A stretch of DNA of 43,083 bases from a virus: the IMG/VR virus record IMGVR_UViG_3300025853_000189, positions 1 through 43,083 of that record; one strand, given 5' to 3'. The notes beneath the pieces were generated by a model. The model made no database searches. It was not told where the DNA came from and worked only from the letters and a program-made list of their open reading frames with translations. Position 1 is the first letter of the stretch. Every line of letters starts with the position of its first letter. The translations under genes were made by a program, and so were the position numbers. Shown here piece after piece: positions 7,178-39,892 of the stretch.

Positions 7178-8110
7178 ATGAGTCAAGTAAAACTTACGAG
7201 TATAGAACGTGTAATATCTGGTGTTTACAGGGATCTAAACCCTTCCGTTGAGATAAATGAATCTGATATGATTGAATGGGCGGGGGAAGCTCTTGAGCAT
7301 ATTGGCGCATACTCTCAATTAGAAGAACGTGTAGAGTATCTTAAAGTAAATGACCATAGAGTTCTTATACCATGTGGATTACACAAAATAGTCCAGGTAG
7401 CTTATAAGTTTACTGACGATGAACCTACTCAAGCAGCAATGTTGACTACATGTGACGGAACAGAAGAATGCAGTAAAGCTAATTGCGCTAATTGTAATCC
7501 AGACTCTTGTGAAGAAGATCTTTGTGCCAAATCAGGGCAATTGATTGCAAATGCAGAATTGTGGCTAGAATACTACAAGCCTAATAGATTTAAGCATACA
7601 GGGTATTATTTTAATAACTACAAACCTATGCGTTTAGCTACAGGGTCATTTGGTAGAGGTGAAAGTGTTCATTGCAAAGACTGTATTAATATATCTTCTA
7701 CATGCGAGCACGAGTATTCTATAGACCATCCATACTTACGTACCGATTTTAAGAAAGGAAATATATGCATATCGTATGTAGCTCAAGCTGTAGATGAGCG
7801 TGGATTCCCTATGATACCAGATGAGGTAAGTTATATAGAAGCTATTAAACGATACATTGTATATAAGCTTAAATACTCTGAGTTTATACAAGGTATTATC
7901 AATCCGCAGGTATTTGCAAAGATTGAAGATGACTGGCATTGGTACTGTAAACAAGCTAGAGGGAAAGCTAATATGCCTGATACTGTAGATAAGCTTGAGA
8001 ATATTAAGCAGCAATGGTCTAGGCTTATACCTAAAGTTAATAGATACTACGGTTACTTTGGTAATCTAGCAGCAAGAGAACATCTTAATCTGACCAATAC
8101 TATAGGATAA
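7178..8110 (+). CDS. crAss-like ring/neck structural protein with Cys-rich insert
   Basis: A 310-residue protein opening with TSIERVISGVYRDLNP and then MIEWAGEALEHIGAYSQLE, followed by strands ending in RVLIPCGLHKIVQVAY. This layout matches crAss-like ring-type proteins as I recall them. An insert at about residues 92-116 has six cysteines (C92, C98, C103, C106, C111, C116), and a second cluster (CKDCINISSTC) follows at about 165-177. The C-terminal part has helices rich in aromatic residues and a Trp pair (DDWHWYCKQ). Its stop codon overlaps the ATG of the 2323-residue protein. The clusters could hold metal ions or covalent links in the neck ring. The ring role is inferred; the clusters are direct observation. 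Confidence 0.6.
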   Translation: MSQVKLTSIERVISGVYRDLNPSVEINESDMIEWAGEALEHIGAYSQLEERVEYLKVNDHRVLIPCGLHKIVQVAYKFTDDEPTQAAMLTTCDGTEECSKANCANCNPDSCEEDLCAKSGQLIANAELWLEYYKPNRFKHTGYYFNNYKPMRLATGSFGRGESVHCKDCINISSTCEHEYSIDHPYLRTDFKKGNICISYVAQAVDERGFPMIPDEVSYIEAIKRYIVYKLKYSEFIQGIINPQVFAKIEDDWHWYCKQARGKANMPDTVDKLENIKQQWSRLIPKVNRYYGYFGNLAAREHLNLTNTIG

Positions 8111-21677: not shown

Positions 21678-24600
21678 ATGGCTAAACAATTCAGACCTAT
21701 AGATAAATATTTTGAACAGTTTGAAGATTCTACCATAGAAGATTCTGTATTTCAATCAACCGAAAAAAATAAAGAGTCTGGAGAAAACGGAGACGAGACA
21801 GAAAGCCTTGTAGAGTCATTAAAACAAGCTGAAGTACAAAAGCAAAAAGCAACGCCAACTACTAAGGAAGAAGCTATAGATTACTATACTAATCCTAGAA
21901 AAGCTGGGTATCGTACTATACGATATATGGATCAAATCAGGGAACAGTCTAATAAATTAAAAGTAAGTTCTGATCCTAATTTTCAACCAACTAAAGATAA
22001 TACTTATTCTATCCAAGAAGATGTTTTAAGGAATGACATATTTATGCCTGGAGCTCGTATAGTGTGGAACTCTATGCAAAAAGCTATTGATGAAATACAA
22101 ATAAGTTCTTTAGAAGGTAGGATTATAGGAGCTACTGCAGAAATAGAAGCATTAAAAGAAACAGCACAAAAAAGAGCAGATAATTTATCTAAGCCTTTAG
22201 AATATACAGAAGAAGAGCAAGAAAGACTTACTGAACTAGAGAATGATATAAAAGATTACGAACAAGACATTCTTGAAAATAAACAAGAGCTAAAAGAAGA
22301 TGTAGATGTTTTAGGAGATTATTGGATACAACAAACAGAAATAGATAAACTTAAAAACAGTACTTCTATGTTTCCTGATAGCTGGAGAGAGCTTGCAGAT
22401 GGTATGGGAGGTACTATGTCTGAGATGTCTGCTTTTGTTGCTAGTATGCTTTTACCTGCTGTAGGTACTGCTATAGGAGTTGGAATATCTACTGGTACTG
22501 TGTCAGGTCTCTACTCTGGAGCAGTAACAAGTTGGAGTGGCCCTGGTGCTGTTTTTGCTGCTGGAGCTGGCGCTACTGCGGGATTTATAACGGGTGTTAT
22601 AGGTTCTGGTTTTGCTCAATATCATGCAAGAGAACATGAGTCTTATGCTGAAATGCAAGAAGCTTATAACGCTTTTATTGAAGGTAAAAAACGAGAATAT
22701 AGGCTTCATAATAACGGTAAAGAAATGCCTGAAAATGAGCTTAGGGCGGTAGAAAAAAAGGCTAGGCGTGATGTAAAAAGTGTTTATGCACAGAATATGG
22801 CACTGTTTACTACAGATGTTTTAGAACTAGGGGCTGTTTTTATTCCTTGGTCTAAATTTGCTTCACGACTTAACAACCTGAGTAGACTTAAACGTACAGC
22901 ATATAAGACAGGGACTATAGTTGGCGGATTTGGATTAGGTAGTGCTTGGGAAGGAAGAGAAGAAGGAGACCAGTTTTTAATTAAAAACAATTTTATAAGA
23001 GGTGTTTATGACGATCAAGATATTTCTACAATGCAGTCTCTTTTTAGCAGTAATGGATTTGCTTCTATTTTTTCTGAGACTACAAAAGGAATGGGAGTCA
23101 ATGCTTATAATAATGTATTTGATGAGAACTTTATAGCAGGAAGAACTAATAGCAAAGAGTTTGATGCTGCTGTAGCATCTGGTATGATGATCGGTGGTTT
23201 TATGGGAGGTTCCAGAACAACCGTAGGATTAAGTATGCAAGGAATAAATATTGCTAATGATAAACTAAGATATGGTTCCGAAGCTCAAGAATTTGCAGAT
23301 CAGATTTATGATAAATATGTAAATGCAGAGCAAGACAAAGCTAGTATGCAATGGTTTTGGGAAAGACTTAGTAAAAAAGGTGATATAAAAAATATCAAAA
23401 AAATCGTTAAAAGGCTACAAAGAAGTTTTCCTAAGCTATACGATGAAATGGATACAAAACTTCTATCAAGAATGATAGGAGAAGCTGATATAGCATATAA
23501 GATAGCAACAGGAGATACAGTTAAAGACTTAGATATTTATGAGCAAGAAATGCTTTTTAGGTCTATTATGGCTTTGCAGAAAAAGATGTACAATAATGAG
23601 CAAAGTAATAATAAATCTAAAGAAGAGTTAGACGAAATTATTGCAGCATTACCAGCTCCTAAAAGAGAAGAAGACCAAGGACTACCTGAACTTCAGCAAA
23701 AGAAAGCAGAACTAGCAGCCGCAGAAGGAATGCTAGAAGCTTTAGAAAAGGAAAAGATAAACGGAATATCTATAGAAGAGCTTTTAAAGCAAACAGAAGA
23801 AAAAGAACCTAATGTAAGACATCACATAGCTGCAAATCGAGCTCAAATAGCATATCTAAAAAATAAGCTAGAAGGTGTTGAGACAAAAGACGGAGAACAA
23901 ATTCCAGGTCTTAGAGAAGAGTATAGTAATATGCTCAAAGAATATGAGAAAAATGACAAAGCTGTGGTTGTTTCTGATGAATTGCAAGAAAAGACTAATG
24001 CTCACTCTAATAACTTAGCTGCTACTCACGCTAACGAAGCCTCTTATTATTCTTTAATAGGTTCTGCTCTAGACACCGAAAGTGGAATAAACAATGCTAT
24101 TGCAGTAAGAAACCATCCTTTCTTTGAAAAATATAATGATCTACTTAAAAAGAAGCAAGAAGCAAAAGAAGAAGAAGAGTTTATTCCAGCATTGGATCAA
24201 CAAGTAAAGCCAGGAAATACTGTAGAAGTAAAAACTCCAGAAGGCGCTACTGTTAGAGGGACTTATGTAGAAGAAACAGAAACTGATGAAGCCTCTGGAA
24301 AAGATATTACAACTGGAAGTGTAGTAGATGATAAAGGGAATAGAATAGGTATAGCTGATAACACACCTATAAGAGTTGTACAACCTAAGTCAGAAGTAGA
24401 AAAAGAGTTAGTAGAAACATTTGCTGAAAACGCAAATGAAAAAACAGAAAAAGAAGAAGAGACAAAACCTGGCCCAGAAGTAAAAACGCCAGAAGAGCCT
24501 GTAGAAGAACCTGCAGATAATCCTGAAAAAAAAGAAGTTCCTGAAAAAGAAAAAAATTCTAGCAGCACAGCTTCAGGGCAAAAACAATCTGATGAGAATA

Positions 24601-27600
24601 ATAAGACTCAGCCTGTCGGAGAGACCAAGGAGGGGGAGGAAGTAGAAAGCGAGCTTCCTGAAGAGCCAATAGGGACAGATACGGAAAAATCTGTAAAAGG
24701 TTCTATAAATGTAGGTGGTAATCTTGCTTCAGTAGAAGCAAAAGAGGCTGGTTTTAAGTTATATAACGCTTTATTAAAAATAGCAGCAAAACTTACAGAT
24801 ACTTTTACTGTAGAATATCAAATAAATCTAGATCCACTTCGATATGCAACAACTCCAGGATTATATGAAAAAATTCAAAACAGAGAAAAGCTAACTGTTG
24901 ACGAAATTAAACAGTTAAAACTAAAGGCTAAGTTTACAAATCCTATTTTAAGCGCTGTTGCTCCTGAATTATATATACTTGATTACAGAGGCGATAATCA
25001 ACGTGATTCTAAAAATGGCGCTGCTATACGTGATAAAATATATAAAGCATATTTAGCTAATCAAGTTGCTTATGGTACGGTAAGGATAGGATTCTCTAGA
25101 GGAGATAATATGATAGGAAGAGTTGTCTATAATTCTACAAAAGGAGACGTTAATTCAATAGCTAGCTTATTTATAGCAGACCCTAATAAAAATATTACCG
25201 CTAAACAGCGTGTTGGAGTAGTTCAGTCTGATGGAAATGTAGTACAAAGTGAGGACGATTCTATTGGCAGGCTTGCAACAATGAAAAAAAATCTCGCGGG
25301 ACAAATATATGCTTTTGTATATAATCCTTTTACTAGGAAAAAAATACCAGTTAAATTAAATACAAGAGACCTTTCTTCTGCAGAAATAGATCTTATTACA
25401 TTATTACTACTTAAAATAAGATCTAAAAAAGGAAACGAACTATCAGATTTTGCTAAAAATCTAACTAACCGTCAACTTTTAAACTTGCTTGTTACAACAT
25501 ATAACATGAAAGGAATAAGCGCATACGGTGCAGATTCTATAAATACAAGACTTGTTATTGAAAAAGGAGAAGTACGGTTTGATTTTAAAGATGGAAATAC
25601 TTATAAAGTACTAACGCCTAATAATCAGGAAGAATTTAAAAAATGGGCATCTCAACAAGGAGTATTAAAACGAAAAGTTAGCCAAAAATTATTAGGAAAA
25701 AGTGTATTTGAAGCTATTGCAGATGATACTATAAATGAAATAACTGTTTTAGGTAAAACATATAAAAGAGGAGTTAATGATGATTATATAAATGATTTTC
25801 TTACTAACGATAATGATTCAGATGCAACTACTCATACTTTAAGTACTGATATTACCTTAGACGCAAATGGAAGTCCTTTAAAAGTAGGAGCAACTCAAAT
25901 CTATTATGATACTAGTGTTCAATCAAAGGCTACATCAAAAAGAGGCCAAAGAAAAAAACAAAAACCTAAAAAGAAAAAATCTAGTGGTCAATCTACTACT
26001 ACTGAAAAATCTACAATACTTGAAAGAGTAAAAGCAAAAATAGCAGAGATAAAAGAAAACAAAACATTTATAAAACTAACTCCTGATGGTAAAAACTATG
26101 TAAATACACGTACAGGTAAAATTTATACAAGAGTAACTACATTTATAGGAGGAGAAGGAATAGTTGATGGCATAGAAGAAAAAGAGTCTATGCGAGAATA
26201 CAGAAAAAGGTTAGAAGAATTAGGCTACGAAGGAAAAGAACTAGAAAATAAATTAACGGTAGCATCCTCTCTTCGTATAGGAACTGCAATAGATGAATTT
26301 GTAAGAGATTTCTTTAGTGGAAATCTAAAGCCATTATCAAAATACAAAGTCGCAGATGAAAAAGCATTAGAGCAATTTAAGATTGCTTTAGAAAATTTAA
26401 AAAAACAATTTGACGAACGTGGTGAAACTGTACTAGCAGAAGATATTATTCTATACAATGATGAAGCAGGCGTAGCTGGAACAGTTGATTTGCTCACTTA
26501 TGATGAAAAAGGTGTATTTCGTATTTATGATATGAAAACCATGAGAGGTAATCAATTTACTGCTACTCATAGAGGCGGAGCTAATAAAGGAAAGTTTAAA
26601 TATGATACTCCTTATCGTAAAGGAGAGGACTCTAATAAAGTTAAACATCAGAAACAAACATCTCTTTATAGAATACTGTTAAATAATACACACGGAGAAA
26701 AAGCAGCAGAGTTAGGTATTATTCCAATTGTTGTACAATATGCCCCAGGAGAAGAAGAAACTAGTACACTTGAATTATTACCTACATTACCTGTAATTCC
26801 TTTAGATCAAGTTGCTGAAGCTACTATAGACGATGTACAGGAATCTACAGAGCCTGAAATGCAAAATCCTGTAGAAGAAACTGGCAAGCCTAGTCAAAAT
26901 GCTGAAGGAGAAGTAAATGCTGAAATAGATAATAAAAGCGAAGTAGGAAACAATGACGATATAGACAATGTCGAGCTTACTATGGAAGTGGGGCCAGAGT
27001 ATACAGAAGATACCTCTTCAGTAAAAATAAATGAAGATCAAGCCAGGTCTAGATTAAGAAGAATTTTAGGAGATTCTATACCTGTACAATTTCAAAAAAG
27101 TCTTATTAAAATAGCAGGGAAAGGTAGATATGCTTACGGTGTATTTAGAAAAGCCATGATTGTTCTGTCTGAGCAAGCTGTTAATGGGGCAGAGTTTCAC
27201 GAAGCAGAACATGCAGTAGAATTTCTTTGGTTAAGCGATCAGCAGCTAAAAGAATTAAACGCAGAAACTGCAAAAACTTATGGAAAAGCTACTCAAGAAG
27301 AAATTGATAAAGTAAAAGAGCAGTATAAGAAGTATAATCTAAGTGATGAAATGGCTGCTCATATTCATTATGCAGAGCTAAGAGCAGAAGACTATCGAAT
27401 GTATGCTCTTGCAGGAGAAGAAATGGGTTTTACAGGTAAAACTCTAAGATGGTTTAAAAAACTGAAATACTCAGTTGAGTATTTTGCAAATCCAAATAAA
27501 GCCTTCACTACTGATTTACTATTTGCTAGAATGTCTAGCGGTTACTATGCTAAAAAAGATCCGATACCTGAAAAAATAGAAAAGTGGGCAAAAGGAGACG

Positions 27601-30600
27601 GAATGGTATCAATGATGATGTCCGCATTAAACATCTCAGACCAAGCATACGATCAAAGTATTGATACTTTATTAGCTTATATAGTAGCTCTAAAACCAGA
27701 AAACGGAGGTGTTGCTGGTGTGTCTAACGTAACAAACTTTACTAAAGAAATTAAGATTGTAAAAAAAGTTGTAATAGCTCTTTTAGAAAGATTTGCAAAC
27801 GATCAAACAAAAACAAAAGAACAAAGGGAGAATATTCAAAAACTACTAGGAACTAAAGAAAATGAATATAAGGATGGTGTTCTAGATCAGCTTACTAAAG
27901 ATATGCTTAGTAGAGTAAAGCAGTTAAATATAAGAGAAAAAGAAGAAAAAGAGCGAGCTAACAAAGACTTAGAGTCTGCAACTAAAGATGCTTTTGAATC
28001 AAGTAATAAAGAAAACGCTAACATAAACACCAAATACTTAATCAGCTTCCTAGTTAAAAAAGATAAAGAGGGTAAGATTATAGTAAATCCTGAAACTGGT
28101 TTACCTGTTATAGCAAATTCTTCTAAAATATTTAATGAGCTTGAAGCTAAGCTTTCAAATATTGTAAACTATCAAACTTTTGATAAAGAAAATGGTACCA
28201 TAAAAACTGTTTTTGCGTATGATAGAATGCTTGCCATACTAGATAATATGGCCGAGCAAGATCCAACATTTGAACGCCTTAGAGACATAGTTAAGAACGA
28301 GTTATCTGATAACGAAAGAACTCAGTTTTTTAATACTATGTCCAAATCAAACAATAACTTTTTAACTGCCTTACAATTTCAATCTCTTGTAGAAGAAGCA
28401 GGAGAAACAGTTGTAAATCACAATTTTAGATTTATAAATCCGCAGCAAAATTCTAAAAAGTATAGAATAATGGATAAGTGGCTAGGGCTTCTAGGGGATA
28501 ATCCATTGTTTAGAACAGAGTTAGGAGAAAATGATGAGGTTAATGTATATGGAGACGCAGAATTAGCTAAGAATATAGTAGCAAAGTTTGATACTGTTGT
28601 TTCTGAGATTCTAAATCTCAGTTCTGATATTACAACTTTACCTACTGAAAACGCTCAAAAGCTTAGAGATCTGTTACGTGAAGTAGGTATTCTAATGTCT
28701 ACCGAAGGAGTCCAGGCTTTTTATCAAATGTATTATAATGACTCTATAAAAAGGGGAGCGGAAGATCCTAGCATAAATAGCAGGAGTAAAATGGTTGGAG
28801 AGCTTAAATTTATTTTTGGAAACTCTACAAAGAAAGGAGCGCAAAAACCTTACACTATATATTCAATTTCAAAAGGAGATAGTAAAACACCTCTTAAAAA
28901 AGTAGATTTTGTAACAGAAAATTATCTAAAACAAGAACGTAGAGTTGTTGGTAGGCTAGCAGAAGCAGAATCTGTATTTCAAGAAGATTATGATCAGACT
29001 ACTATCCTTAAAACAGAAGGAAGAAAAGCTTGGATATATTCTTTGAATAACTATTTCAAAAAGAAGAGCCTTCAATATAATGCTTCTACTTATTATGCTA
29101 ACAATTTATTAGGAGCTGTTTACAATAAAGGCTCTATTCTTTTAAACTATCTGCAAAGAGAAGGCACTTCTATTAATTATAGAACTTTTAATATTTTCCA
29201 AAAGAAAGGAGGAATAAGTTCAGGAGTTGAGTATAAAGATATTGTTGAAGCAGACGAGTACAACTTGCGGGTTAATATGACAATGAACGATGATATTTAC
29301 TCTCCTCCTACTATGGCAGATAAAGGAGTATGGTTAGTTTATCAAGGCCCTAAATATCTATCAACAAGTCAGATTAAAAATATTAAGTATGACGCTGAGA
29401 CAGATACGTATGTAATACCTGATACTATTTTAAACGTATTTCAAGATTACGCAATATCAGAATTAAACAGAATAAGAGACGCTCAAAAACAATTATTTGG
29501 AGATGACGAAGCTCTAGCCTGGTCTGATGAGGAGCTTGTTCAGTTTTATCATTTTATGGATCTTTTAGAAGATGGTACTCCTGATAGAAATAGTGCTAAT
29601 GCTTTAAAAAGTCAACTTTTTGAAAGCATACTTACTAACGAATTTTTAGAAAATCTTGGCATCACAAAAAAAGGCAGAGTTATAAAATTTGCTGTAGATA
29701 AACTAAAACAAAATCCAGAGTTTAAAGCGGCTATGTCAAAAGTATTAAACGAAAGGATTAGAAAAGAAGTAGTAAAAGCTGTAGAATATTCTGTAGTAAA
29801 ACAATTTGACAATGGAAATCTTGCAATAGGTAGTACTGATGTTACAACCTTCAGGGAATTTCTAAAAGACAGCAATGCTGATATGGCTGCTAGACATTTA
29901 ATAAGTGGTTATACACTTAAGTCTATGATTTCTTCTATTGAAATTATGAAAGCCTTCAGTGGTGACCCTGCTTATTATAAATCAATGGTAGAGATGCAAA
30001 AGCGTCTTCCTGAGCTTATTGCGCCAGGACAAGATTTAAATATAACCTCTCCAGAACAAGAGACTTTTACTGCAGCAGTACTTCAAGATATCACAAAGAA
30101 AAGTGAATATTACAAAACTTATCTGAAAAATTTCAAGGATTTTAATGACAAGTTTAATTTAGGATTTACAGAAAAACAGATAGTAGAAATTTTAAAGCCC
30201 TACGATAAAAAGGGTATTAATCAAACAGATGCCCAAGGATATATTACTCTTACAAGATGGAAGAGTATTATGGAAATGCTAGGCAAATGGACTCAAACTG
30301 AAGCAAAAGAATTAGACGAAGCTTATGAAAGATTATTAGAAGGAAAAGGAACCCAGGAGGACATGAAATTAATAGCAGCAATGCCGTTAAAAGGAATGTA
30401 TTTTGATCTTAGAGACCATAAGGGATTAAAAGTTCCTACTTATTTTAAGTACTCTCAAGCCGTATTATTTCCTCAATTAGTGAAAGGCTCAGAAGAGCTT
30501 CAAACTCTTTATGATACAATGCTAGAAAAAGGAGTAGATGAAGTAATTTTTGAGTCTGGAGTAAAGGTAGGTGCTCAATTTCCAGAACGGTTTACTGCTG

Positions 30601-33600
30601 ATAAACAAGGATCTGTATTAGAGTTAAGAAATAGCATGGTTCTTAGAAATGAGTACTGGAAACTTCAGCAAGATCTAAGGCCTCATACATCTCCTACACA
30701 ATTAGAAGGATCTCAGATAAAACGTAATATAATAGCTAACGTAGAATTAGATAAAACGTATTCTGTTATAGTTAAGACTGGTAAAAAGAAAAACCAATAT
30801 AAAGAAGTAACAGGTAGGGAACTTGTGCAAATGGCCCATGATGCTGATATAGCATTATCTAATTTAGGAAAAGAAGAGCTTTTAGAAGAATTTGGAGTTA
30901 AAACCAGTGAAGACGGGCTTACATATAAAATTGTAGATTATACAAAGCTTGCTGCAATTCTTGAAAGAGAGTTTTTAAATGACACAAAGACTACTAATAA
31001 ATTATTAAAATCTTTAGAGCTAAATGCTGATAAAACAGGATTTAAAATACCACTAAGCGAAAATCCATTTGCAGATAAAATAGACCAAAAGATAGGCTCA
31101 TTAATTACTAAAAGGACTGTTAAATTAGAAATGCCTGGAGGTTCTTATATCCAGATGAGTAATTATGGATTTAGAAGAGTTCAAAGATTTTCTTCATTAT
31201 CAAAAGAAGAGCAAGCTAGTATTTCTAGAGTAACTAATCCTAAACCATTACGTCCTGCAACTTTTAATGACAACAAAAAACATGTCCGTGCTCAATTAAT
31301 GTTGCCTAGTTATTTTAAAGACCTTATTCCTGGAAATGAGAAAATGTCTTCTTTGGAAATTGGAAAATATATAGAAAATAAAAATCTTCTTAGAGGTATT
31401 GCATATCGTATTCCTAACCAAGGTATGAGCTCTATTGACGCTTTTGAAGTGGTAGGATTTTTACCTAAATCTATGGGAGACACCGTAGTAGCTTATGATG
31501 ACATTACTTCTAAAACAGGATCTGACTTTGACATTGATAAAATGTATATCATGTTGCCTAATTATGGGGTAAATAAAGAAACAGGGGAGATATATTATAT
31601 ACGTTCTGATAAAAAATACAAGGAGAGAAGTATGCAGAGAAAGGCTCTGCAGAACAGAAAACTTGAAATATACGATGCTATTGTTACTGACCCTAAAACT
31701 TACATTAGTCTTGTTACGCCTCTAGACTCTATCGGTACAAAATTTAGAGCTGCTAAAGTTAGATTATTTGAAAATATAAGTAAGTTTAGTCAGCAAGAAA
31801 TAACTGCACTTAAAGCTTTAGAGTCTTCTAAAGAGTATAATAATTATATCAAAGCTGTAAATAAAGTATTAAACAGACTTGAAGACCTTGAATGGTTTAG
31901 TCCTTCTTACCAACTAGAAACTAAACAGTCTTATATTGGGGGTAAATTTGGAGTAGGGCAGGTAGCACGAGCTTTGGTAGATCATGCTATTTCTCAATTT
32001 AATCCAATTGTATTAAATCAATATCTAGGTATAGGAAATAAAAGAGGCAGTGCTACAAGCCTTGCAGATATATACAACGAAAGAAAAGAGATCATATCTA
32101 ATATAATATCAGGAAGGCTAAATGCTTACGTAGATATTGCGAAAGATCCTTACATCTTTTATCTTAATAATAACTCTTTAACAGCAAATACAGTCTCTTT
32201 ACTTGACAGGGCAGGGGTTTCTCCTGAATGGACAGATTTTTTTATGCCTCAACCTATTCTGAAAAAGTTTGTAGCATATACTAGATATAATCAAGCAGAA
32301 AACACAACTAAGAAAATGCGTAATGGCAAAATGTTATCTGCTGAAGATTTAATATTTGATGAGTATAGACAAGCTTTTGCAGAAGCAAAAATGTCAGAAG
32401 GAATTGACGGGGCAACGATACAAGATTATTACAAAGAGTTTGATGGTATATTGGCAAGCTTAAAAGAAAAGTATAAAAAAGGCTTGCCAGATCTTAGAGC
32501 GCTTTTTTCAGAAGAGCAACTTATAGGTATGCTTAAAAATGGTGGTAATATGGCTAATCCAGGGCATGTTGTAAATCAAATCAAAGTATACTTAATATTT
32601 AACAAGCTAAAAGGAATAGCCTCAGCCGTAAATGATGTAGTATCTGCTTCTAAACAAGATGTAGAAGGATCAAGTGGAGGTTCTGCAAATGTTATAGCTT
32701 CTATAAATAAAAAAAACAAAGCTATCTTAAATGATACAGTTTTAGGAGTTGATGCTAGATTTAACAATACTATGTTAGATATTTATACTCAAAATTCTGT
32801 AAAATTAATGCAGGAGCTTTTTAAAGAGCAGTTTGATTTATTTACTCCAGGATATCAAGCAGCTCTAGCTAAGCTTTACTCATATATAATAGATGAATCA
32901 ATAGCTACAGATCCTTTTAAAATAAGAAAGGCGTACACTTCTTTAAAAGCTATTTATTTAGGAAGTAAGATCGAAGGATTTACACAAGATAAATTAAAAG
33001 AGTTACTTGCAGGAGATAATAATATCTTTAAAAGACTTGCGTATTATCAGTTATCAAAAGAATCCCCTATTCAAAATAATGAACTTGTAAATAGTCTTAT
33101 CCTCAACAGAGCAAGTTCTGCTGCAGAAATGAACTCTATTCAATTCCGTTCAGGATTAATGGATGGTAAAGACCAAGATAGGTTAGAAGCTGCTTGGGAA
33201 GACTTGTTAGTACACGAAGATGCAAAAGTTAGAAAATTTGCAGCAGACCTTGCATTATATGCATATGCTACAAGTGGAATGACTCAAAGAATGTTTTCGT
33301 TCCATCATTTGATTCCTTTTGATTACGAAAATATGATGCTCCAGCGTAATGTTCCTGAAGCTTATACAAAGTATAATGGAGATATAGCAGCCGAATATCA
33401 AGAAAGAACAGATAGTTTTAGTATTCTACCTTTTGTAGAGCCTATGATTAGAAATTTTTCTGATATACATGAATACGCACCTACTGTATCTGCAAGTACT
33501 ATTACCAATAAAAGAATAGATAAAAACACAAAAAAGATAATAGCGTTTGCCACAGGAGATCTTAGAGTCCGTAAAGAAATTATAGAGGATGATAGTAAAT

Positions 33601-35840
33601 ACGAAGAGTTTTCAAAGTTTGTAAAACTTGGAGATGATTTATATGAATTAGTAGGATTTTCTACAATAAATGAAGGAAAAATTAGTAATCCTGTTTATGC
33701 TAAAACTAATAAGCTTGGGTATAACGAAAAAGGTAATATTATTATAGAGCCTTTTATAACAGACACTTCGATATTTAGAGAGAATAAAGTAGAAACTTTC
33801 ACTAAAGAAGACCAGGATGGTAAAACTGTAAAAAAATATAAAGCTGTTTCTTTAGATACAATCATAGATGGAATAACTTTTAAAGAAGGAGCTAACGAGA
33901 AAAATAGATTTTTAACAAATCCTAGAGAGTTTGATACTAGTGGATATAATTATGACACTAATGAAATTGAAGGTAACGAAGAGCTTTACCATTTAGAAAA
34001 TACATTAGCAGAACAAGCACGAGAATATGCAAGACTCTCTAATAAACTATTAGGACTTTCTCTTATATATACAGGAAATAAATTATCTACCGACACAAAG
34101 AATACATTAAAGAAACTTGGACTTTCTGAAGACGAAATAGAATCTTTTGAAGGTTATTTAGAAAGTAATTTTGAAGCTTTTAGGGGTAAACGATTAGACG
34201 TACTAGCAGCGTTTAGATACGACTCTTTTATGAGAGCGAATAAAGAGTCTTTAAAAGAAATAGAGTTGCTTACACAAGCTGCAAATAAAGAATTAGATAA
34301 ATATTTAATAGAATACCTTGAAGAGTTCGGAGTTAAAATAACAGAACGGACTATAGAGGAAATGGCGCAACGATATGGCATAGGCAGACTAGGAGTAACA
34401 AATAGTTTAAAGAAAATTATTGAGGTCGCTCAAGATAGAAATGCTGCATTGATGCCTGAAGAATTTAGTCATATGCTAATTGATCTTGTGGGAGCTGATA
34501 ATGAAGTTATAAAACCGCTTATGGATAATATCACTAGTTGGGGAAAATATCCTCAAGTAGTTGAAGACTACAAAAATGATCCTGCGTATCAATTAAGTGA
34601 TGGTAGTATAAACTTTGAAAAAATAAAGAAAGAAGCTGCTGGTAAATTACTAGCTGAAGCTATTGTCTATGCTAATAGAAAAACCGAACCAAAAGGATTT
34701 TTCTTAAAAACTGCATACGATGTTTATAATGCTATACTAGACATTATACAAAGAATAAAATTTGTAATGGGTCTAAGCGAGCAGCCTTTGTTGTTAGAAG
34801 GATCCGAAAAAGAAACGGGATCTCCTATTGAAGTAATAGCTAATGATATTGCTGATAAAGTTTTAGAAGGAGAAAAAGATTGGATGGAAAATTATAGAGA
34901 AGCAAGAGAGGAGCAATTTAAAGATAGAAGCTACGAAGAATCTCTTGCTGATTATCCTAAAGCAGCTAAACTAATAGAAGAAATTATTGTAAAACTTAAA
35001 GGAAAGCTCGTAGGGTCGCTTGCTATAAGGGCACAGGGTATTTTAATGCGGCCTGATTCAGAAACTGTGCATGACCTTGATTTTGAAATTAGTAAAAAAG
35101 ATCTAGAAGTTAAAACAAGACAAGATGTATGGGATTGGGTAAATAATGTTGTTACTAAAGAAATAGAAAACTTTATTCCTATATACGTTTGGGATAAAGG
35201 CTCTAGCGGTAAATTTATAGTTAACGGAGTTGTGACAGAATATCCTTACATAGCTAAAAAGTTTAGAGCTTTACGTGGTAATTTTGTAAGCCGCATGAAA
35301 CAATTGTCTCAATTTGAAAGGGATAATGTTATTCTTATTGACTTTTTCCTTAACTCTGAGGAAAAAGCTGCTACAAAAGAAGGGTTTGCTACATGGCAAG
35401 ATATATTTGAAGCAAAAATTGGTTCTGAAAAAGGATTTAAAAGAGATAAAGATTACTACGATATACGAAGATTTATACCTTATGAAGAGTATGCAGATAC
35501 TAATATTGAAATGGATTCAGAATTTACGTATTACAATATATCTAGAGCAGAAATTGTAAAACGTGCTAAAGAAGAAATAGATAAAGCAGCTAAAGAAGGG
35601 GCTTTCAGAAAATGGGGAGGTGTTTATTACCAATGGAACAATCCTAGCAAGAAAGTTAATATGTCTTTAGAAGCAGTTCTAAATATTAATAACAAAGTTT
35701 TTAATGGAGGAAAAGTTGTTAGATTAGTGCAAACTCCAAATGGTAAAATAGGGCAGAGAAAAGTAGCAGTATTTCCAAACAATTATATAGATCCACAATT
35801 AGGACTATTTGATAATCCATATAAACCTAAATGTGATTAA
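21678..35840 (+). CDS. 4720-residue multidomain virion RNA polymerase with nuclease, zincin and nucleotidyltransferase-like domains
   Basis: One uninterrupted 14.2-kb frame. Seen in order: N-terminal coiled coils; a Gly/Ala-rich hydrophobic segment at about 247-315; an acidic linker at about 904-1004; a Lys-rich patch at about 1417-1436; a PD-(D/E)XK nuclease-like domain at about 1440-1700 (G1535-T-A-I-D, A-G-T-V-D1604, D1618-M-K1620); a second acidic linker at about 1720-1780; a zincin motif H1841-E-A-E-H1845 with E1904 as possible third ligand; a long region with D3283-F-D-I-D3287, the crAss-like RNA polymerase metal-binding motif, followed by GKFGVGQ at 3422; and near the C-terminus a nucleotidyltransferase-like G4446-S4447 and D4466-L-D4468. 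The crAss-like polymerase is packaged and transcribes early genes. The other activities are predicted from motifs only; cleavage into smaller products is possible. Confidence 0.8.
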   Translation: MAKQFRPIDKYFEQFEDSTIEDSVFQSTEKNKESGENGDETESLVESLKQAEVQKQKATPTTKEEAIDYYTNPRKAGYRTIRYMDQIREQSNKLKVSSDPNFQPTKDNTYSIQEDVLRNDIFMPGARIVWNSMQKAIDEIQISSLEGRIIGATAEIEALKETAQKRADNLSKPLEYTEEEQERLTELENDIKDYEQDILENKQELKEDVDVLGDYWIQQTEIDKLKNSTSMFPDSWRELADGMGGTMSEMSAFVASMLLPAVGTAIGVGISTGTVSGLYSGAVTSWSGPGAVFAAGAGATAGFITGVIGSGFAQYHAREHESYAEMQEAYNAFIEGKKREYRLHNNGKEMPENELRAVEKKARRDVKSVYAQNMALFTTDVLELGAVFIPWSKFASRLNNLSRLKRTAYKTGTIVGGFGLGSAWEGREEGDQFLIKNNFIRGVYDDQDISTMQSLFSSNGFASIFSETTKGMGVNAYNNVFDENFIAGRTNSKEFDAAVASGMMIGGFMGGSRTTVGLSMQGINIANDKLRYGSEAQEFADQIYDKYVNAEQDKASMQWFWERLSKKGDIKNIKKIVKRLQRSFPKLYDEMDTKLLSRMIGEADIAYKIATGDTVKDLDIYEQEMLFRSIMALQKKMYNNEQSNNKSKEELDEIIAALPAPKREEDQGLPELQQKKAELAAAEGMLEALEKEKINGISIEELLKQTEEKEPNVRHHIAANRAQIAYLKNKLEGVETKDGEQIPGLREEYSNMLKEYEKNDKAVVVSDELQEKTNAHSNNLAATHANEASYYSLIGSALDTESGINNAIAVRNHPFFEKYNDLLKKKQEAKEEEEFIPALDQQVKPGNTVEVKTPEGATVRGTYVEETETDEASGKDITTGSVVDDKGNRIGIADNTPIRVVQPKSEVEKELVETFAENANEKTEKEEETKPGPEVKTPEEPVEEPADNPEKKEVPEKEKNSSSTASGQKQSDENNKTQPVGETKEGEEVESELPEEPIGTDTEKSVKGSINVGGNLASVEAKEAGFKLYNALLKIAAKLTDTFTVEYQINLDPLRYATTPGLYEKIQNREKLTVDEIKQLKLKAKFTNPILSAVAPELYILDYRGDNQRDSKNGAAIRDKIYKAYLANQVAYGTVRIGFSRGDNMIGRVVYNSTKGDVNSIASLFIADPNKNITAKQRVGVVQSDGNVVQSEDDSIGRLATMKKNLAGQIYAFVYNPFTRKKIPVKLNTRDLSSAEIDLITLLLLKIRSKKGNELSDFAKNLTNRQLLNLLVTTYNMKGISAYGADSINTRLVIEKGEVRFDFKDGNTYKVLTPNNQEEFKKWASQQGVLKRKVSQKLLGKSVFEAIADDTINEITVLGKTYKRGVNDDYINDFLTNDNDSDATTHTLSTDITLDANGSPLKVGATQIYYDTSVQSKATSKRGQRKKQKPKKKKSSGQSTTTEKSTILERVKAKIAEIKENKTFIKLTPDGKNYVNTRTGKIYTRVTTFIGGEGIVDGIEEKESMREYRKRLEELGYEGKELENKLTVASSLRIGTAIDEFVRDFFSGNLKPLSKYKVADEKALEQFKIALENLKKQFDERGETVLAEDIILYNDEAGVAGTVDLLTYDEKGVFRIYDMKTMRGNQFTATHRGGANKGKFKYDTPYRKGEDSNKVKHQKQTSLYRILLNNTHGEKAAELGIIPIVVQYAPGEEETSTLELLPTLPVIPLDQVAEATIDDVQESTEPEMQNPVEETGKPSQNAEGEVNAEIDNKSEVGNNDDIDNVELTMEVGPEYTEDTSSVKINEDQARSRLRRILGDSIPVQFQKSLIKIAGKGRYAYGVFRKAMIVLSEQAVNGAEFHEAEHAVEFLWLSDQQLKELNAETAKTYGKATQEEIDKVKEQYKKYNLSDEMAAHIHYAELRAEDYRMYALAGEEMGFTGKTLRWFKKLKYSVEYFANPNKAFTTDLLFARMSSGYYAKKDPIPEKIEKWAKGDGMVSMMMSALNISDQAYDQSIDTLLAYIVALKPENGGVAGVSNVTNFTKEIKIVKKVVIALLERFANDQTKTKEQRENIQKLLGTKENEYKDGVLDQLTKDMLSRVKQLNIREKEEKERANKDLESATKDAFESSNKENANINTKYLISFLVKKDKEGKIIVNPETGLPVIANSSKIFNELEAKLSNIVNYQTFDKENGTIKTVFAYDRMLAILDNMAEQDPTFERLRDIVKNELSDNERTQFFNTMSKSNNNFLTALQFQSLVEEAGETVVNHNFRFINPQQNSKKYRIMDKWLGLLGDNPLFRTELGENDEVNVYGDAELAKNIVAKFDTVVSEILNLSSDITTLPTENAQKLRDLLREVGILMSTEGVQAFYQMYYNDSIKRGAEDPSINSRSKMVGELKFIFGNSTKKGAQKPYTIYSISKGDSKTPLKKVDFVTENYLKQERRVVGRLAEAESVFQEDYDQTTILKTEGRKAWIYSLNNYFKKKSLQYNASTYYANNLLGAVYNKGSILLNYLQREGTSINYRTFNIFQKKGGISSGVEYKDIVEADEYNLRVNMTMNDDIYSPPTMADKGVWLVYQGPKYLSTSQIKNIKYDAETDTYVIPDTILNVFQDYAISELNRIRDAQKQLFGDDEALAWSDEELVQFYHFMDLLEDGTPDRNSANALKSQLFESILTNEFLENLGITKKGRVIKFAVDKLKQNPEFKAAMSKVLNERIRKEVVKAVEYSVVKQFDNGNLAIGSTDVTTFREFLKDSNADMAARHLISGYTLKSMISSIEIMKAFSGDPAYYKSMVEMQKRLPELIAPGQDLNITSPEQETFTAAVLQDITKKSEYYKTYLKNFKDFNDKFNLGFTEKQIVEILKPYDKKGINQTDAQGYITLTRWKSIMEMLGKWTQTEAKELDEAYERLLEGKGTQEDMKLIAAMPLKGMYFDLRDHKGLKVPTYFKYSQAVLFPQLVKGSEELQTLYDTMLEKGVDEVIFESGVKVGAQFPERFTADKQGSVLELRNSMVLRNEYWKLQQDLRPHTSPTQLEGSQIKRNIIANVELDKTYSVIVKTGKKKNQYKEVTGRELVQMAHDADIALSNLGKEELLEEFGVKTSEDGLTYKIVDYTKLAAILEREFLNDTKTTNKLLKSLELNADKTGFKIPLSENPFADKIDQKIGSLITKRTVKLEMPGGSYIQMSNYGFRRVQRFSSLSKEEQASISRVTNPKPLRPATFNDNKKHVRAQLMLPSYFKDLIPGNEKMSSLEIGKYIENKNLLRGIAYRIPNQGMSSIDAFEVVGFLPKSMGDTVVAYDDITSKTGSDFDIDKMYIMLPNYGVNKETGEIYYIRSDKKYKERSMQRKALQNRKLEIYDAIVTDPKTYISLVTPLDSIGTKFRAAKVRLFENISKFSQQEITALKALESSKEYNNYIKAVNKVLNRLEDLEWFSPSYQLETKQSYIGGKFGVGQVARALVDHAISQFNPIVLNQYLGIGNKRGSATSLADIYNERKEIISNIISGRLNAYVDIAKDPYIFYLNNNSLTANTVSLLDRAGVSPEWTDFFMPQPILKKFVAYTRYNQAENTTKKMRNGKMLSAEDLIFDEYRQAFAEAKMSEGIDGATIQDYYKEFDGILASLKEKYKKGLPDLRALFSEEQLIGMLKNGGNMANPGHVVNQIKVYLIFNKLKGIASAVNDVVSASKQDVEGSSGGSANVIASINKKNKAILNDTVLGVDARFNNTMLDIYTQNSVKLMQELFKEQFDLFTPGYQAALAKLYSYIIDESIATDPFKIRKAYTSLKAIYLGSKIEGFTQDKLKELLAGDNNIFKRLAYYQLSKESPIQNNELVNSLILNRASSAAEMNSIQFRSGLMDGKDQDRLEAAWEDLLVHEDAKVRKFAADLALYAYATSGMTQRMFSFHHLIPFDYENMMLQRNVPEAYTKYNGDIAAEYQERTDSFSILPFVEPMIRNFSDIHEYAPTVSASTITNKRIDKNTKKIIAFATGDLRVRKEIIEDDSKYEEFSKFVKLGDDLYELVGFSTINEGKISNPVYAKTNKLGYNEKGNIIIEPFITDTSIFRENKVETFTKEDQDGKTVKKYKAVSLDTIIDGITFKEGANEKNRFLTNPREFDTSGYNYDTNEIEGNEELYHLENTLAEQAREYARLSNKLLGLSLIYTGNKLSTDTKNTLKKLGLSEDEIESFEGYLESNFEAFRGKRLDVLAAFRYDSFMRANKESLKEIELLTQAANKELDKYLIEYLEEFGVKITERTIEEMAQRYGIGRLGVTNSLKKIIEVAQDRNAALMPEEFSHMLIDLVGADNEVIKPLMDNITSWGKYPQVVEDYKNDPAYQLSDGSINFEKIKKEAAGKLLAEAIVYANRKTEPKGFFLKTAYDVYNAILDIIQRIKFVMGLSEQPLLLEGSEKETGSPIEVIANDIADKVLEGEKDWMENYREAREEQFKDRSYEESLADYPKAAKLIEEIIVKLKGKLVGSLAIRAQGILMRPDSETVHDLDFEISKKDLEVKTRQDVWDWVNNVVTKEIENFIPIYVWDKGSSGKFIVNGVVTEYPYIAKKFRALRGNFVSRMKQLSQFERDNVILIDFFLNSEEKAATKEGFATWQDIFEAKIGSEKGFKRDKDYYDIRRFIPYEEYADTNIEMDSEFTYYNISRAEIVKRAKEEIDKAAKEGAFRKWGGVYYQWNNPSKKVNMSLEAVLNINNKVFNGGKVVRLVQTPNGKIGQRKVAVFPNNYIDPQLGLFDNPYKPKCD

Positions 35841-35860: not shown

Positions 35861-38800
35861 ATGGCTTGTAAATACACACATCCTATTACTGGTGAAGACA
35901 GTAAACTTTATGAAAAGTTAAGCAAACAATACAGCGAAGAAAGAGCAGATGCGTATTACAAATTTGCTACTGGGCCTGAATTTAAAAGTAAGTTCGGAGA
36001 TTGGGTACATTTTCCTGAAGATTATAAATTAAAAAAGTCAGATAAAACAACTCCTAGGTTATACGAATACGGAAGAACAGAGCCAGATGAGTTTGGCGAA
36101 ACTATGCCTATTTACGGAGAGCCTTTTTTAGAAGACGTAGTAAAAGAAGCTGAAAAAATAGGAATTACAAACAAGCCTTATAATGATGGTCAGTTTAAAA
36201 ATGAGACTAATATATTTAGAAATATAGTCCAGGGAACTATTTCCAGCATTGAAAAAACTCTTCAAAAATTACGAAGAAAAAGAATAGCTAATTTAAATGA
36301 GCTTACAACAAAAGAAACTTTAAAAGAAGATAAGGAAAACCTAAAAAAAATAATTGAAGAAGAAAGTACAAGAGAGACAAAGTTCAGAGCTGTACAACAA
36401 ATAGGAGAGTTTATTAAAAATGCTATAACTCAATTACAAGAAGCTACCGAGATTATAAATAGAATTGAAATTTCTATGGCTAGTGGAAATGTAGAAGAAG
36501 TGTCTCGAAACGCACAAGATCTACAAGCGCTTTACACTTATTTAGAAACATATAAAGAGCTAGATGATCAATTAGACGCTTTAGTTGCTAGTAAATATAC
36601 TATATTGCCTTATATGCGAAATGAAAAAGCTAGAAGAGAGGAGTTTCTAGAAAGACTAGAAGAGCTTATTGAGGCAATGCGTGTTTTAAAAGCTAAAAGA
36701 GAAGAAATAGAGGTTCGGTATGAGGAACTTATAATGGATACTGTAATAAATAAATTTAGTACAGGAAAAGAAATTATAGAAGAAGAAATGGTAGAGCTTT
36801 ACAGGCAGCAGTATTTAGCAGCCCGTAAAAAATTTAAAACAGAACAAGAAAGAAAAGAAAGGGGTATAGATAAACCTTTTGAAGAATTTATCGAAGAAAA
36901 ACTTCAAGAAGGTTCTGACTTTACAGAAAGAGGTAAGGCTCTTTTTAGAAACATGTTAAGGTCTAGAGAAGGGGATATTTCATGGGGGCATAGAATGTTT
37001 ATGAATATGTTAGATGTTCCTGATGATGTTTTAAGAGCCTTTCAAATTCAATTAGCAATTGTAGAAGACGAGATTCGTTTAGATTTCCATAAACAATTAT
37101 ATAACCTAGATAAGCTACGGGTTAAAATGATTGAAAGTTATAATAAGGTTTTTGGTAAACCTGAATCTATAGAAGATCAGTTTAAATTTATGGCAGAGTA
37201 TGATGAAGATGGAAATTATACTAAGTTTTTTGTTGCTAGGTATTACTCTGCTTGGGAAAGGTTACTAAAAGAAAAAAAGCTAGAATTTATTAATGACGAA
37301 GAGCTCACTAGAGAAGAAGCGTTAGCTGCTTACGAAGAGTGGATAGAAGAAAACACAGTAGAAAATTTTACATTACCTACGCTGGATACTTCAAAAATGT
37401 CTGAAGAAGAAAAAGAAGCGTATGAAAATGATTTAGCACTTATGGCAGATTTAAAATCTAAAATAACTTTAGCTAAAGCAAAAAAGAGACAAGAAGGAAA
37501 AAGTGATGAGTTTTTTGATGCCCAACACCAATTATATAATTTGCATAGTAAGTATCATTCAACTTTTATAATTCCAAAATCTAAAGAAGATCAGAAAAAA
37601 TATGAAAATCCTCAATACGACCAGCTATTAAAATATAAAGAAGGTACTGAAGACGAAAGAGTTTTATGGCAGTATTATAACGAATACATAAAGCTTCATT
37701 TAAAAAATGAGCAAAGTATGCCTTTTGAATTTCAATTACGTTTTAAGATGCCTAGCATGCGTAAAACTGCAATGGAGTCTTTTGAAAATATTGAAAAAGG
37801 ATTATTTGGACGTGTAAAATTATTTGGAAAGAATAGTTATATGTCAGAGATAATAAAACCTTGGATAGAAGAAAGTTTTCAATATGTGGTAGGAGAGATT
37901 GAAGAACAAGGAGATATTATAAGCGCTATAGATAAAGAAACAGAGACAGAAAAAGAAAGAAATGAAAGGCTTAAAAAAGAGCAGGATGAAATAGAGGAAA
38001 GGAGAAAGAAAAAGAAAAGACGTAAATTTTTTAGATTAACGCAATCTCACGATCTACGAGAACGACAATACGTTCCTATTTATTATAGAGGTGTAATGGA
38101 AACGGATAGGCAATCCAGAGACCTTCATACAATGCTTGTATTTAATACATTCAATGGCATTAACTATCAAAAAATGATTGAGTTTTTACCATTTGCTGAA
38201 ATGCTTTCTTCTATTTTAAAGAAAAGAAAAAAGCTAGCTGTTAAAGCAGGATTGCCTGTGTTTGGGCATAATTTTACAGGTAGAAATATAGATAAAAGAG
38301 CTTCAGAGTCTTATAATATGTTGAGAGATGAAATAGACAAACGTATGTTTGGTATTCGTCAAATTGATCCTGGATATAAAATAGGAAACATTCCTCTTAC
38401 CAAGATTGTACAAATGATGGCTCAATATACAAGTTTAACAATGCTGTCAGGTAATATAGATTCTTCATTTGCTAACTTATCTTTAGCCACCACATTAACT
38501 ATAACAGAAGGAGTTGCAGGAGAGTTTTATACCGCAAAACAAGTTGCAAAAGCAGAAGGATTATATGCGGCAGACTTTGTAAATCAATTGCAAGATGTTT
38601 TAGAGCCCGTTGACAAGTATTCTAAAATAAATCTATTAAACTATATATTCGATCCTGTTAACAGTTTTGATCACAGAGAATTTAACTACGCATACAATAC
38701 AAAAGGAAGACAGTTAATACACGGTTCTAGTTTTCATATTTTAAATCATACAGTAGAAAAACAAGTACAAAGTGTTACTATGATAGCAACGCTTTTAAAT

Positions 38801-39892
38801 ATAAAAGTTTTAGATGCTGATGGTAAATACATATCTAAAAAAGACGTAACAAAACGTGTAGACAAGAGAGAAGATGCTATGAGTTTGTACGATACATTTA
38901 ATGTAAAAGATGGAAGGATTACTTATACAGACGAAGTATCTCAAATTGAAATTAAACAAGGTTCCCGATATAAAAAATATGAGTATAAAAGTCTAGACCA
39001 AAGAAGAAAAGGGAATATTAGAATAACTCACATTGTACAAAGGATAAATCAGCAATTACATGGTAATTACAGTGTTAGAAATAGTATTAACTTCCAAAGA
39101 TTGTTGTTAGGTAACTTAATGGTACAACATAAAAAATATTTAGCACCTGGTCAAGAAAGAAGATGGGGAGGTATTAGAAAAGTTGTTATGGACTATACTC
39201 CTTTTATTGGGACTTATGCTAACTTAGACAAAGAAAAAGGAGAAACCTTGGAAGGAGAGTATCTAAATAAAAATCAAAGACCTCCACATTATAGATATTT
39301 GATATTTGATCCTACAAAAAGCATGGTAGTACCTAGAGGTTTATATGCAACTGTTTATAAATTTATAGGAAAATCAATAAGTGATTTAAAAGACCTTAAA
39401 TGGCAAGTGCTTTCTGAAAATTGGAATGAACTTAGAGAAACAGAAAAAGCTAACATGCACAGATTTGTGTCAGAGCTTGGTTTTATGGTTGCTGCTAATA
39501 TGATGGGACTTGCATTAGCAGGAATGGCTAACTCAGAAGATGATGAAGAAGCTGAAAAAATGTATTTTAGATTAAGCTTCTTTTCTTTTCGTCTATACAG
39601 TGAGTTACGTCAATATACATCACTTATAGAGCTTAGTCGTATCCTAAGAAATCCTGCAGCAACTGTAACAATGATTGAAAGAATTGCAAATTTACTAGGG
39701 CAAGGAATGACAGACGTTGGGGCTATTTTATCTGGAGAAAGTCCTGAAATATATAAATCAGGTCTTAGAAAAGGCCAGTATAAAATTGAAAAAAGATTTT
39801 TTGATACAGTTCCTTTCTATAAACACTTCACTAGAGGTGATTACATGAAAGATATTGTTAGTTTTTATACAGAAACTAACAAAACCAGATAA
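35861..39892 (+). CDS. 1343-residue cargo-type virion protein
   Basis: The last gene of the plus-strand run, 20 bases after the polymerase gene. The N-terminus has Y-K-F-A-T-G-P-E-F-K-S-K-F45-G-D-W48, a motif that recurs at or near the start of some large phage proteins, often linked to ADP-ribosyltransferase-like or nuclease modules. Charged coiled coils follow at about 110-330 and a run of basic residues (RRKKKKRRKFF) at about 712-722. The C-terminal third is more hydrophobic, with a likely membrane-active helix at about 1205-1222 (MVAANMMGLALAGMA) next to an acidic patch. No catalytic site is visible. It is probably ejected with the giant polymerase; this is inferred from position and composition. 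Confidence 0.55.
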   Translation: MACKYTHPITGEDSKLYEKLSKQYSEERADAYYKFATGPEFKSKFGDWVHFPEDYKLKKSDKTTPRLYEYGRTEPDEFGETMPIYGEPFLEDVVKEAEKIGITNKPYNDGQFKNETNIFRNIVQGTISSIEKTLQKLRRKRIANLNELTTKETLKEDKENLKKIIEEESTRETKFRAVQQIGEFIKNAITQLQEATEIINRIEISMASGNVEEVSRNAQDLQALYTYLETYKELDDQLDALVASKYTILPYMRNEKARREEFLERLEELIEAMRVLKAKREEIEVRYEELIMDTVINKFSTGKEIIEEEMVELYRQQYLAARKKFKTEQERKERGIDKPFEEFIEEKLQEGSDFTERGKALFRNMLRSREGDISWGHRMFMNMLDVPDDVLRAFQIQLAIVEDEIRLDFHKQLYNLDKLRVKMIESYNKVFGKPESIEDQFKFMAEYDEDGNYTKFFVARYYSAWERLLKEKKLEFINDEELTREEALAAYEEWIEENTVENFTLPTLDTSKMSEEEKEAYENDLALMADLKSKITLAKAKKRQEGKSDEFFDAQHQLYNLHSKYHSTFIIPKSKEDQKKYENPQYDQLLKYKEGTEDERVLWQYYNEYIKLHLKNEQSMPFEFQLRFKMPSMRKTAMESFENIEKGLFGRVKLFGKNSYMSEIIKPWIEESFQYVVGEIEEQGDIISAIDKETETEKERNERLKKEQDEIEERRKKKKRRKFFRLTQSHDLRERQYVPIYYRGVMETDRQSRDLHTMLVFNTFNGINYQKMIEFLPFAEMLSSILKKRKKLAVKAGLPVFGHNFTGRNIDKRASESYNMLRDEIDKRMFGIRQIDPGYKIGNIPLTKIVQMMAQYTSLTMLSGNIDSSFANLSLATTLTITEGVAGEFYTAKQVAKAEGLYAADFVNQLQDVLEPVDKYSKINLLNYIFDPVNSFDHREFNYAYNTKGRQLIHGSSFHILNHTVEKQVQSVTMIATLLNIKVLDADGKYISKKDVTKRVDKREDAMSLYDTFNVKDGRITYTDEVSQIEIKQGSRYKKYEYKSLDQRRKGNIRITHIVQRINQQLHGNYSVRNSINFQRLLLGNLMVQHKKYLAPGQERRWGGIRKVVMDYTPFIGTYANLDKEKGETLEGEYLNKNQRPPHYRYLIFDPTKSMVVPRGLYATVYKFIGKSISDLKDLKWQVLSENWNELRETEKANMHRFVSELGFMVAANMMGLALAGMANSEDDEEAEKMYFRLSFFSFRLYSELRQYTSLIELSRILRNPAATVTMIERIANLLGQGMTDVGAILSGESPEIYKSGLRKGQYKIEKRFFDTVPFYKHFTRGDYMKDIVSFYTETNKTR

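Follow-up and report, generated by a model that had tools for sequence, protein, structure and literature searches.

Gene content of the window

The window analysed here is an entire 43,083-bp IMG/VR record, classed as virus. Its genes are ordered as muzzle-like, ejection-type, giant, 1,343-aa gene and then genes on the opposite strand. The giant gene is a single open frame of 4,720 codons that runs from ATG to TAA (Table 1). An earlier note on this DNA had described the frame as unbroken, which was confirmed, as internal stops are absent. The muzzle-like protein (2,323 aa, 8110-15081) is related to PHROG virion structural families. The polymerase gene is preceded by the genes for muzzle and ejection proteins and followed by a gp49/g065-type gene, a placement expected of a crAss-like virion polymerase. 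The C-terminal half of the product of the latter gene, which we call the partner, matches phi14:2 g065 and crAss001 gp49.

Table 1. Features of the giant gene and its neighbours in the window. Residue numbers refer to the giant chain unless stated otherwise.
Feature	Position (nt)	Strand	Basis or remark
Upstream probable ejection protein, 861 aa	19078..21663	+	cysteine-free; outer boundary without couplers
Giant virion-RNAP cargo chain, 4,720 aa	21678..35840	+	single Cys
N-terminal (gp47/g067-type) ejection half, residues 1-860	21678..24257	+	HMM A, near relatives only
Acidic low-complexity linker, residues 904-1004	24387..24689	+	composition
Conserved domain of unknown function, residues 1073-1396	24894..25865	+	HMM B
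Predicted RecB-type PD-(D/E)XK nuclease, residues 1455-1692	26040..26753	+	PHROG exonuclease, E 1.4e-11
Acidic linker, residues 1720-1780	26835..27017	+	composition
Predicted zincin, residues 1795-1957 (HEAEH 1841-1845, conserved Glu 1900)	27060..27548	+	alignment and model
Two-barrel RNA polymerase, residues 2033-3893	27774..33356	+	PDB 6VR4, E 3.6e-122
Second zincin-like domain, residues 4239-4353	34392..34736	+	HMM G
Predicted MenT/AbiEii-like nucleotidyltransferase, residues 4400-4645	34875..35612	+	alignment and model
C4719 codon (TGT), proposed C-terminal coupler	35832..35834	+	only cysteine of the giant
gp49/g065-type partner, 1,343 aa	35861..39892	+	sequence matches; single Cys (C3)
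C3 codon (TGT) of the partner, proposed N-terminal coupler	35867..35869	+	only cysteine of the partner
gp49-C domain of the partner, end-of-chain marker	38057..39865	+	C-terminal Cys never follows

The muzzle-like protein contains 36 cysteines and far exceeds the 1,340-1,371 aa of its phi14:2 and crAss001 counterparts. A 1,153-aa protein encoded ahead of the cargo block (15086-18547) has four cysteines within residues 1106-1131, a possible metal site. The product of a 10.7-kb contig (L108) is 96% identical to the partner over the last 624 residues, and this contig overlaps the region.

Catalytic modules of the giant chain

The earlier note had called four catalytic modules in the giant and proposed that their folds be checked. 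All four calls (RNA polymerase, RecB-like PD-(D/E)XK nuclease, HExxH zincin and MenT/AbiEii-like nucleotidyltransferase) were borne out, the zincin and the nucleotidyltransferase by structure prediction and the polymerase and the nuclease by sequence. The motifs HEAEH, DFDID and DLDF stand where they had been read, at 1841, 3283 and 4466, and the acidic and Lys-rich low-complexity linkers were recovered from the composition of the chain.

The proposed link to the crAss-like virion polymerase also held. Over the best stretches the polymerase module is 32-35% identical to phi14:2 g066, with matches that span g066 residues 170-2087, and its DFDID motif occupies residues 3283-3287 (nt 31524-31538). 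The location in the virion and the function as an RNA polymerase are predicted for this module, both being carried over from its orthologues.

The ejection half aligns weakly with phi14:2 g067 and crAss001 gp47 and has one hydrophobic segment at about residues 250-272, as judged by hydropathy. The conserved domain that follows the first linker also occurs in relatives whose N-half is a gene of its own. The nuclease region is 32% identical to the corresponding region of crAss001 gp47. Its catalytic residues D1604, D1618 and K1620 are invariant in 15/15 rows of relatives, and Q1660 is kept in 14/15. These similarities identify it, at the level of sequence, as a RecB-type PD-(D/E)XK nuclease.

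In an alignment of 30 diverse rows, H1841 and E1842 of the zincin are invariant and H1845 and E1900 are present in at least 90%. The predicted model (pLDDT 87, pTM 0.83) has a zincin fold. Foldseek alone returned no significant match for it (E above 0.5), and the fold was placed by a second aligner, whose best-ranked solved structures were mostly zinc metallopeptidases with middling Z scores of about 6, such as PPEP-3 (Z 6.3, rmsd 4.1, 127 aligned residues) and IrrE (Z 6.2, rmsd 2.9, 89 aligned residues).

The model of the nucleotidyltransferase (pLDDT 73) is closest to MenT1 (Z 8.6, rmsd 3.5, 137 aligned residues), TM1012 (Z 8.2) and JHP933 (Z 8.0), and 50/50 of the structure matches listed are nucleotidyltransferases or Pol-beta-type polymerases. 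The alignment shows the motifs expected for the modelled nucleotidyltransferase fold, GS at 4446-4447, DLD at 4466-4468 and the third Asp at D4555. When Foldseek was used alone on this module and the zincin, no match was significant (E above 0.08), and the second aligner placed both. Direct searches of Pfam and of the sequences of solved structures were also without matches for the two. Among the loci searched, the nucleotidyltransferase occurs only within the cargo block, either in the gene after the polymerase, at the polymerase C-terminus, or, in one locus (L093), on the N-terminal side of the polymerase. One protein (L008:15541-19044) contains two copies, the second with a damaged motif (NSLN...SSLD).

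The second zincin-like domain has EEFSH (4261-4265) where HExxH would be expected, so the first His is lost. Its counterparts have HEFGH in many relatives and EEFAH in crAss001 gp49. HEFGH and PEExxH forms both occur among the relatives, and the downstream Glu is kept in both.

Fusion and splitting of the cargo block

A first scan of viral contigs with a single-protein query was without matches. The comparison below is based on 80 polymerase loci (L numbers), which were fetched before the cysteine pattern was noticed.

The giant is roughly twice as long as the phi14:2 polymerase. Its residues 1-2000 match phi14:2 g067 and crAss001 gp47, and residues 3960-4720 match modules that usually open the next gene. 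The extra length therefore arises because a gp47-like gene and part of a gp49-like gene stand in frame with the polymerase. The equivalents are g067 (1,797 aa), g066 (2,180 aa) and g065 (1,421 aa) in phi14:2, and gp47 (2,341 aa, nuclease then zincin), gp50 (2,412 aa) and gp49 (1,349 aa) on two strands in crAss001. The block totals are similar: 6,063 aa in the window, 6,102 in crAss001, 6,160 in cr50_1, 6,613 in cr118_1 and 5,398 in phi14:2. This means that gene boundaries shift within one conserved block.

The earlier note had named an assembly error as a possible source of the long frame. This was ruled out by relatives and GenBank chains with a matching layout. One relative (L007) is 55% identical to the giant over the polymerase core and encodes a chain of 4,392 aa in which the order is kept and the nuclease is absent. 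In another (L008) the chain is 3,890 aa long, and the nucleotidyltransferase is encoded together with the EEYSH module by a gene of its own (1,167 aa), which stands between the polymerase and the last partner. The fused GenBank chains are 4,774 and 4,946 aa long.

Roughly half of the classifiable polymerase loci are fused, and on the polymerase tree there are at least 6-7 changes between the fused and the split state. The giant thus belongs to a type that was known before. Chains fused to a length of 3.5-5.3 kaa occur widely in crAss-like phages and have already been deposited. One deposited genome has proteins annotated as 'RNAP subunit fusion' and as 'RNAP associated protein/zincin protease fusion', and a number of large multidomain proteins from the block, of which some include the nuclease, were described by Yutin et al. 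(2021; PMC7886860). Thus, the earlier view of the giant as an undescribed system did not hold. Neither did the idea that a complete early-infection set is made as one polyprotein, as the 1,343-aa partner is a separate gene. In two giants of gut Suoliviridae (L002 and L004), a PIF1/RecD-like helicase (Pfam AAA_30) lies toward the C-terminus, in the place that the nucleotidyltransferase has in the window.

The zincin is located where the N-half meets the polymerase, so we considered, close to the polyprotein reading of the earlier note, that a fused chain might be cut by its own zincin, either inside the virion or once in the host, which would free the nuclease, the polymerase and the nucleotidyltransferase. 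HExxH and the Glu are kept across the 30 diverse rows, as such self-processing would predict. A zincin was found in 31/36 chains called fused and in 3/38 called split (one of them miscalled), and the polyvalent-protein paper proposes processing of this type (PMC5512222). However, the association of the zincin with fusion loses its support when descent is taken into account (0.7 of 6 pairs on the tree), and in crAss001 the zincin stays on the separate gp47 gene. Self-processing is possible but, in our judgement, rather doubtful. Zincin processing of fused chains would be compatible with the coupling of separate chains that is described below, although the data do not require it.

Terminal cysteines at the joints between separate chains

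The giant has one cysteine in 4,720 residues, the penultimate C4719, and the only cysteine of the next product is at residue 3 of 1,343. The three phi14:2 proteins have a similar arrangement: the only cysteine of g067 is its last residue (C1797), g066 has C3 and C2179, and g065 has C3. In crAss001, gp47 has C2339 of 2,341 residues, gp50 has C5, C2404 of 2,412 and an internal one at 1334, and gp49 has C5.

Across the true boundaries between separate cargo genes, the downstream protein has a cysteine within its first 8 residues in 98/98 cases (0.75 expected), and the upstream protein has one within its last 10 residues in 96/98 (0.71 expected). Expected counts were obtained by placing each protein's own cysteines at random. 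In the two upstream proteins without a cysteine in these last 10 residues, the only one is 17 residues from the end in one case and 31 in the other. The N-terminal cysteine is mostly at residue 3-5, and the C-terminal one mostly has 0-3 residues after it. Elsewhere in the cargo proteins cysteine is rare, with 0.04-0.31 internal cysteines per 1000 aa, whereas the remaining ORFs of these loci have 5.8. Some internal cysteines are kept in gut Suoliviridae, several in each giant, so the depletion is incomplete.

The outer ends of the block are clean. An N-terminal cysteine was found in 0/30 separate N-halves and 0/21 fused giants, and a C-terminal one in 0/68 gp49-C proteins and in 0/21 upstream ejection proteins. 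The polymerase has an N-terminal cysteine in 35/35 cases when it is split from the N-half and in 0/30 when it is fused to it. One locus first called fused (L093) is really split, with an inserted nucleotidyltransferase. Where the polymerase and gp49 are fused (L055, LMMB and crAss002), the C-terminal cysteine of the polymerase is absent, and a chain of 5,005 aa that is fused throughout (L072) has no cysteine at all. Another chain (L083; 3,998 aa), whose 5' end is cut by the contig, also has zero cysteines. In two loci (L092 and L094), a middle protein with cysteines at both ends led us to expect a third link, which was then found. Loci fetched later (L112, L116, L119 and L122) obey the rule, as does Flavobacterium phage Fpv3, which is listed outside Crassvirales. 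A locus read with the standard code (L064) is split and has both couplers.

Six apparent exceptions (L044, L050, L056, L082, L045 and L027) were set aside after the loci had been read, which is an after-the-fact judgement. Relative to its near-copy L046, L045 has an extra stop or frameshift, and in L027 the adjacent gene was not the true partner. In the other four, the polymerase core genes are interrupted by inserted sequence that looks intron- or intein-like. The breaks in L044, L050 and L082 are without cysteine couplers, and L056, in which the second half starts with MGC, is a possible exception. In crAss002 (Intestiviridae), the start of the polymerase (L102:15088) seems to be annotated 32 codons early, with MSC at residues 33-35; this phage fits the rule only if the polymerase starts 32 codons after the annotated position. 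Among independent split/fused pairs, 4-5/5 changed in the predicted direction (p 0.06), the loci being related to one another.

The pattern could also be an artefact, either of a chimeric assembly or of DNA signals that impose Cys codons where stop and start sites overlap. The record is indeed a single metagenome contig. However, the order recurs in independent assemblies and in isolates. In crAss001 and DAC15, gp47, the first link, and its partner are encoded on different strands, so the rule acts at the level of the protein and not of overlapping stop/start DNA. It also survives in L027, where three cysteine-bearing genes are inserted between the polymerase and the partner, which still starts with MSC. 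We regard the artefact as refuted by the opposite-strand loci and its probability as negligible.

Another explanation is that the terminal cysteine is a packaging or anchoring tag, by which each separate cargo protein would be attached to the portal or else to a partner common to all. This would account for the presence of at least one terminal cysteine on every separately made cargo chain. It leaves the polarity unexplained, however, as the first link has its cysteine only at the C-terminus, the middle one at both ends and the last one only at the N-terminus, and it gives no reason why the fully fused chain of L072 needs none. We therefore consider a tag very improbable.

The matching pairs at facing ends and their absence in fused chains would also fit terminal cysteines that bind Zn or an Fe-S cluster and so hold the subunits in non-covalent contact, either within the virion or as part of the active polymerase complex. 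One cysteine per end, however, gives two ligands per joint. No second cysteine is conserved near the ends, and a His is present in the last 10 residues in 9/105 proteins and in the first 8 in 11/105. Because there are only two ligands per joint and no further conserved Cys or His, a tetrahedral metal site would need two trains of proteins. A metal joint by itself also leaves the avoidance of internal cysteines unexplained. Such a joint seems improbable to us.

The terminal-cysteine pattern was not mentioned in the works retrieved by our literature searches or in one review, a set outside which the 2020 phi14:2 polymerase paper falls. While the fused giant alone is not new, the cysteine coupling rule is.

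A proposed train of coupled cargo proteins

A coupled train would bear on how crAss-like phages, which outnumber all other viruses in the human gut, pass folded enzymes of several hundred kDa, ordered and equimolar, through a channel of less than about 50 angstrom.

Peptide bonds and Cys-Cys pairs are alternatives at identical joints and at no others, and the simplest interpretation is that both serve to join neighbouring chains. From the observed pattern we infer a disulfide bond between the terminal cysteines of neighbouring chains. We think it likely that the cargo forms a train joined end to end, in which the giant comes first and is the longest member, each joint being a peptide bond or a disulfide. 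With slightly less confidence we favour the broader model, in which the cargo of these phages is a linear train made by fusion or Cys-Cys disulfides, threaded through the tail and reduced in the host, and in which fusion and coupling are interchangeable in evolution.

The cargo block, about 6,063 aa here, would be packed in the head of a crAss-like phage and ejected into a Bacteroidota host, the group suggested by the relatives. Neighbours encoded by one gene would be linked through the peptide bond. Neighbours encoded by two genes would be linked by an inter-chain disulfide between the C-terminal cysteine of the upstream protein and the N-terminal cysteine of the downstream one. The train, partly unfolded, would thread the narrow tail, which would give a fixed order and an equal dose. 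The reducing cytoplasm of the host would then cleave the links, and the proteins would refold and act. The giant would bring the membrane/ejection half, the nuclease, the zincin, the RNA polymerase for early genes and the nucleotidyltransferase. Joints at the ends only, with no other thiols, would fit single-file passage, as internal bridges would form loops.

A point against the train is that each set has two to four terminal thiols, so mis-pairing could occur unless docking guides the pairing. Split polymerases and partners, including the partner of the window (E 2.8e-13), are homologous over their first 70-80 residues, and this shared N-terminal module behind the cysteine may serve for docking.

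Several published observations bear on the model. According to the crAss001 virion paper (PMC10172136), crAss001 virions contain gp47, gp49 and gp50 as detected by MS, and disulfides between other proteins are present in them. The paper has also proposed that cargo is partly unfolded when it is ejected. Cysteine couplers are not mentioned in the passages found. The phi14:2 g065-g067 records carry MS/MS notes.

The earlier note had suggested that fusion in one chain could ensure fixed delivery ratios. The terminal cysteines strengthen this idea, as they suggest that the separate chains would be physically joined too. If the coupled train is true, it would account for order, dose and release together, and it would explain both the mobile gene boundaries and the avoidance of cysteine. 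It would also suggest a redox-released delivery of a protein series.

Comparison with known systems

The phi14:2 polymerase gp66 (PDB 6VR4) is homologous to that of the giant and is flanked by g067 and g065, so the gene order is shared. As in the two chains of the window, all three phi14:2 proteins have terminal cysteines. Phi14:2 uses three genes, whereas the window has the polymerase, the g067-type half, the nuclease, the zincin and the nucleotidyltransferase in one chain. A nuclease or zincin like those of the giant was not found beside g066. In crAss001, the nuclease precedes the zincin in gp47 as it does in the giant, the polymerase is gp50 and the partner gp49, but unlike in the window these are three genes on two strands.

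The Suoliviridae chains of cr118_1 (4,946 aa) and cr50_1 (4,774 aa) are similar in size to the giant and contain a zincin and DFDID. They end in a helicase and not in a nucleotidyltransferase, and they lack the nuclease. In Intestiviridae LMMB, the 'RNAP subunit fusion protein' combines the polymerase and the gp49-type partner in one chain.

Disulfide-joined chains are known from two-chain toxins, in which the bond is reduced in the cytosol. These toxins are analogous, with a covalent joint outside and reduction inside, and are not relatives of the phage cargo. They are also a single joined pair, whereas the phage cargo is proposed to be a head-to-tail series of enzymes.

The polyvalent proteins described by Iyer et al. 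(2017) carry disparate enzymes, including a metallopeptidase, on one injected chain (PMC5512222). The text of that paper does not name crAss-like or Cellulophaga phages, and the passages found do not mention cysteine coupling. The giant has a domain set of the polyvalent type, and its delivery at infection is predicted from its orthologues.

N4 gp50 (Schitoviridae) is, like the giant, a very large RNAP chain of the ejected kind and includes an HExxH region, but its polymerase is unrelated, being single-subunit and T7-like. N4 gp50 (3,500 aa), gp51 and gp52 (L099) are cysteine-free and hence have no terminal couplers. Since these proteins lack cysteine and are uncoupled, cysteine avoidance may be general, and coupling an addition of the crAss type.
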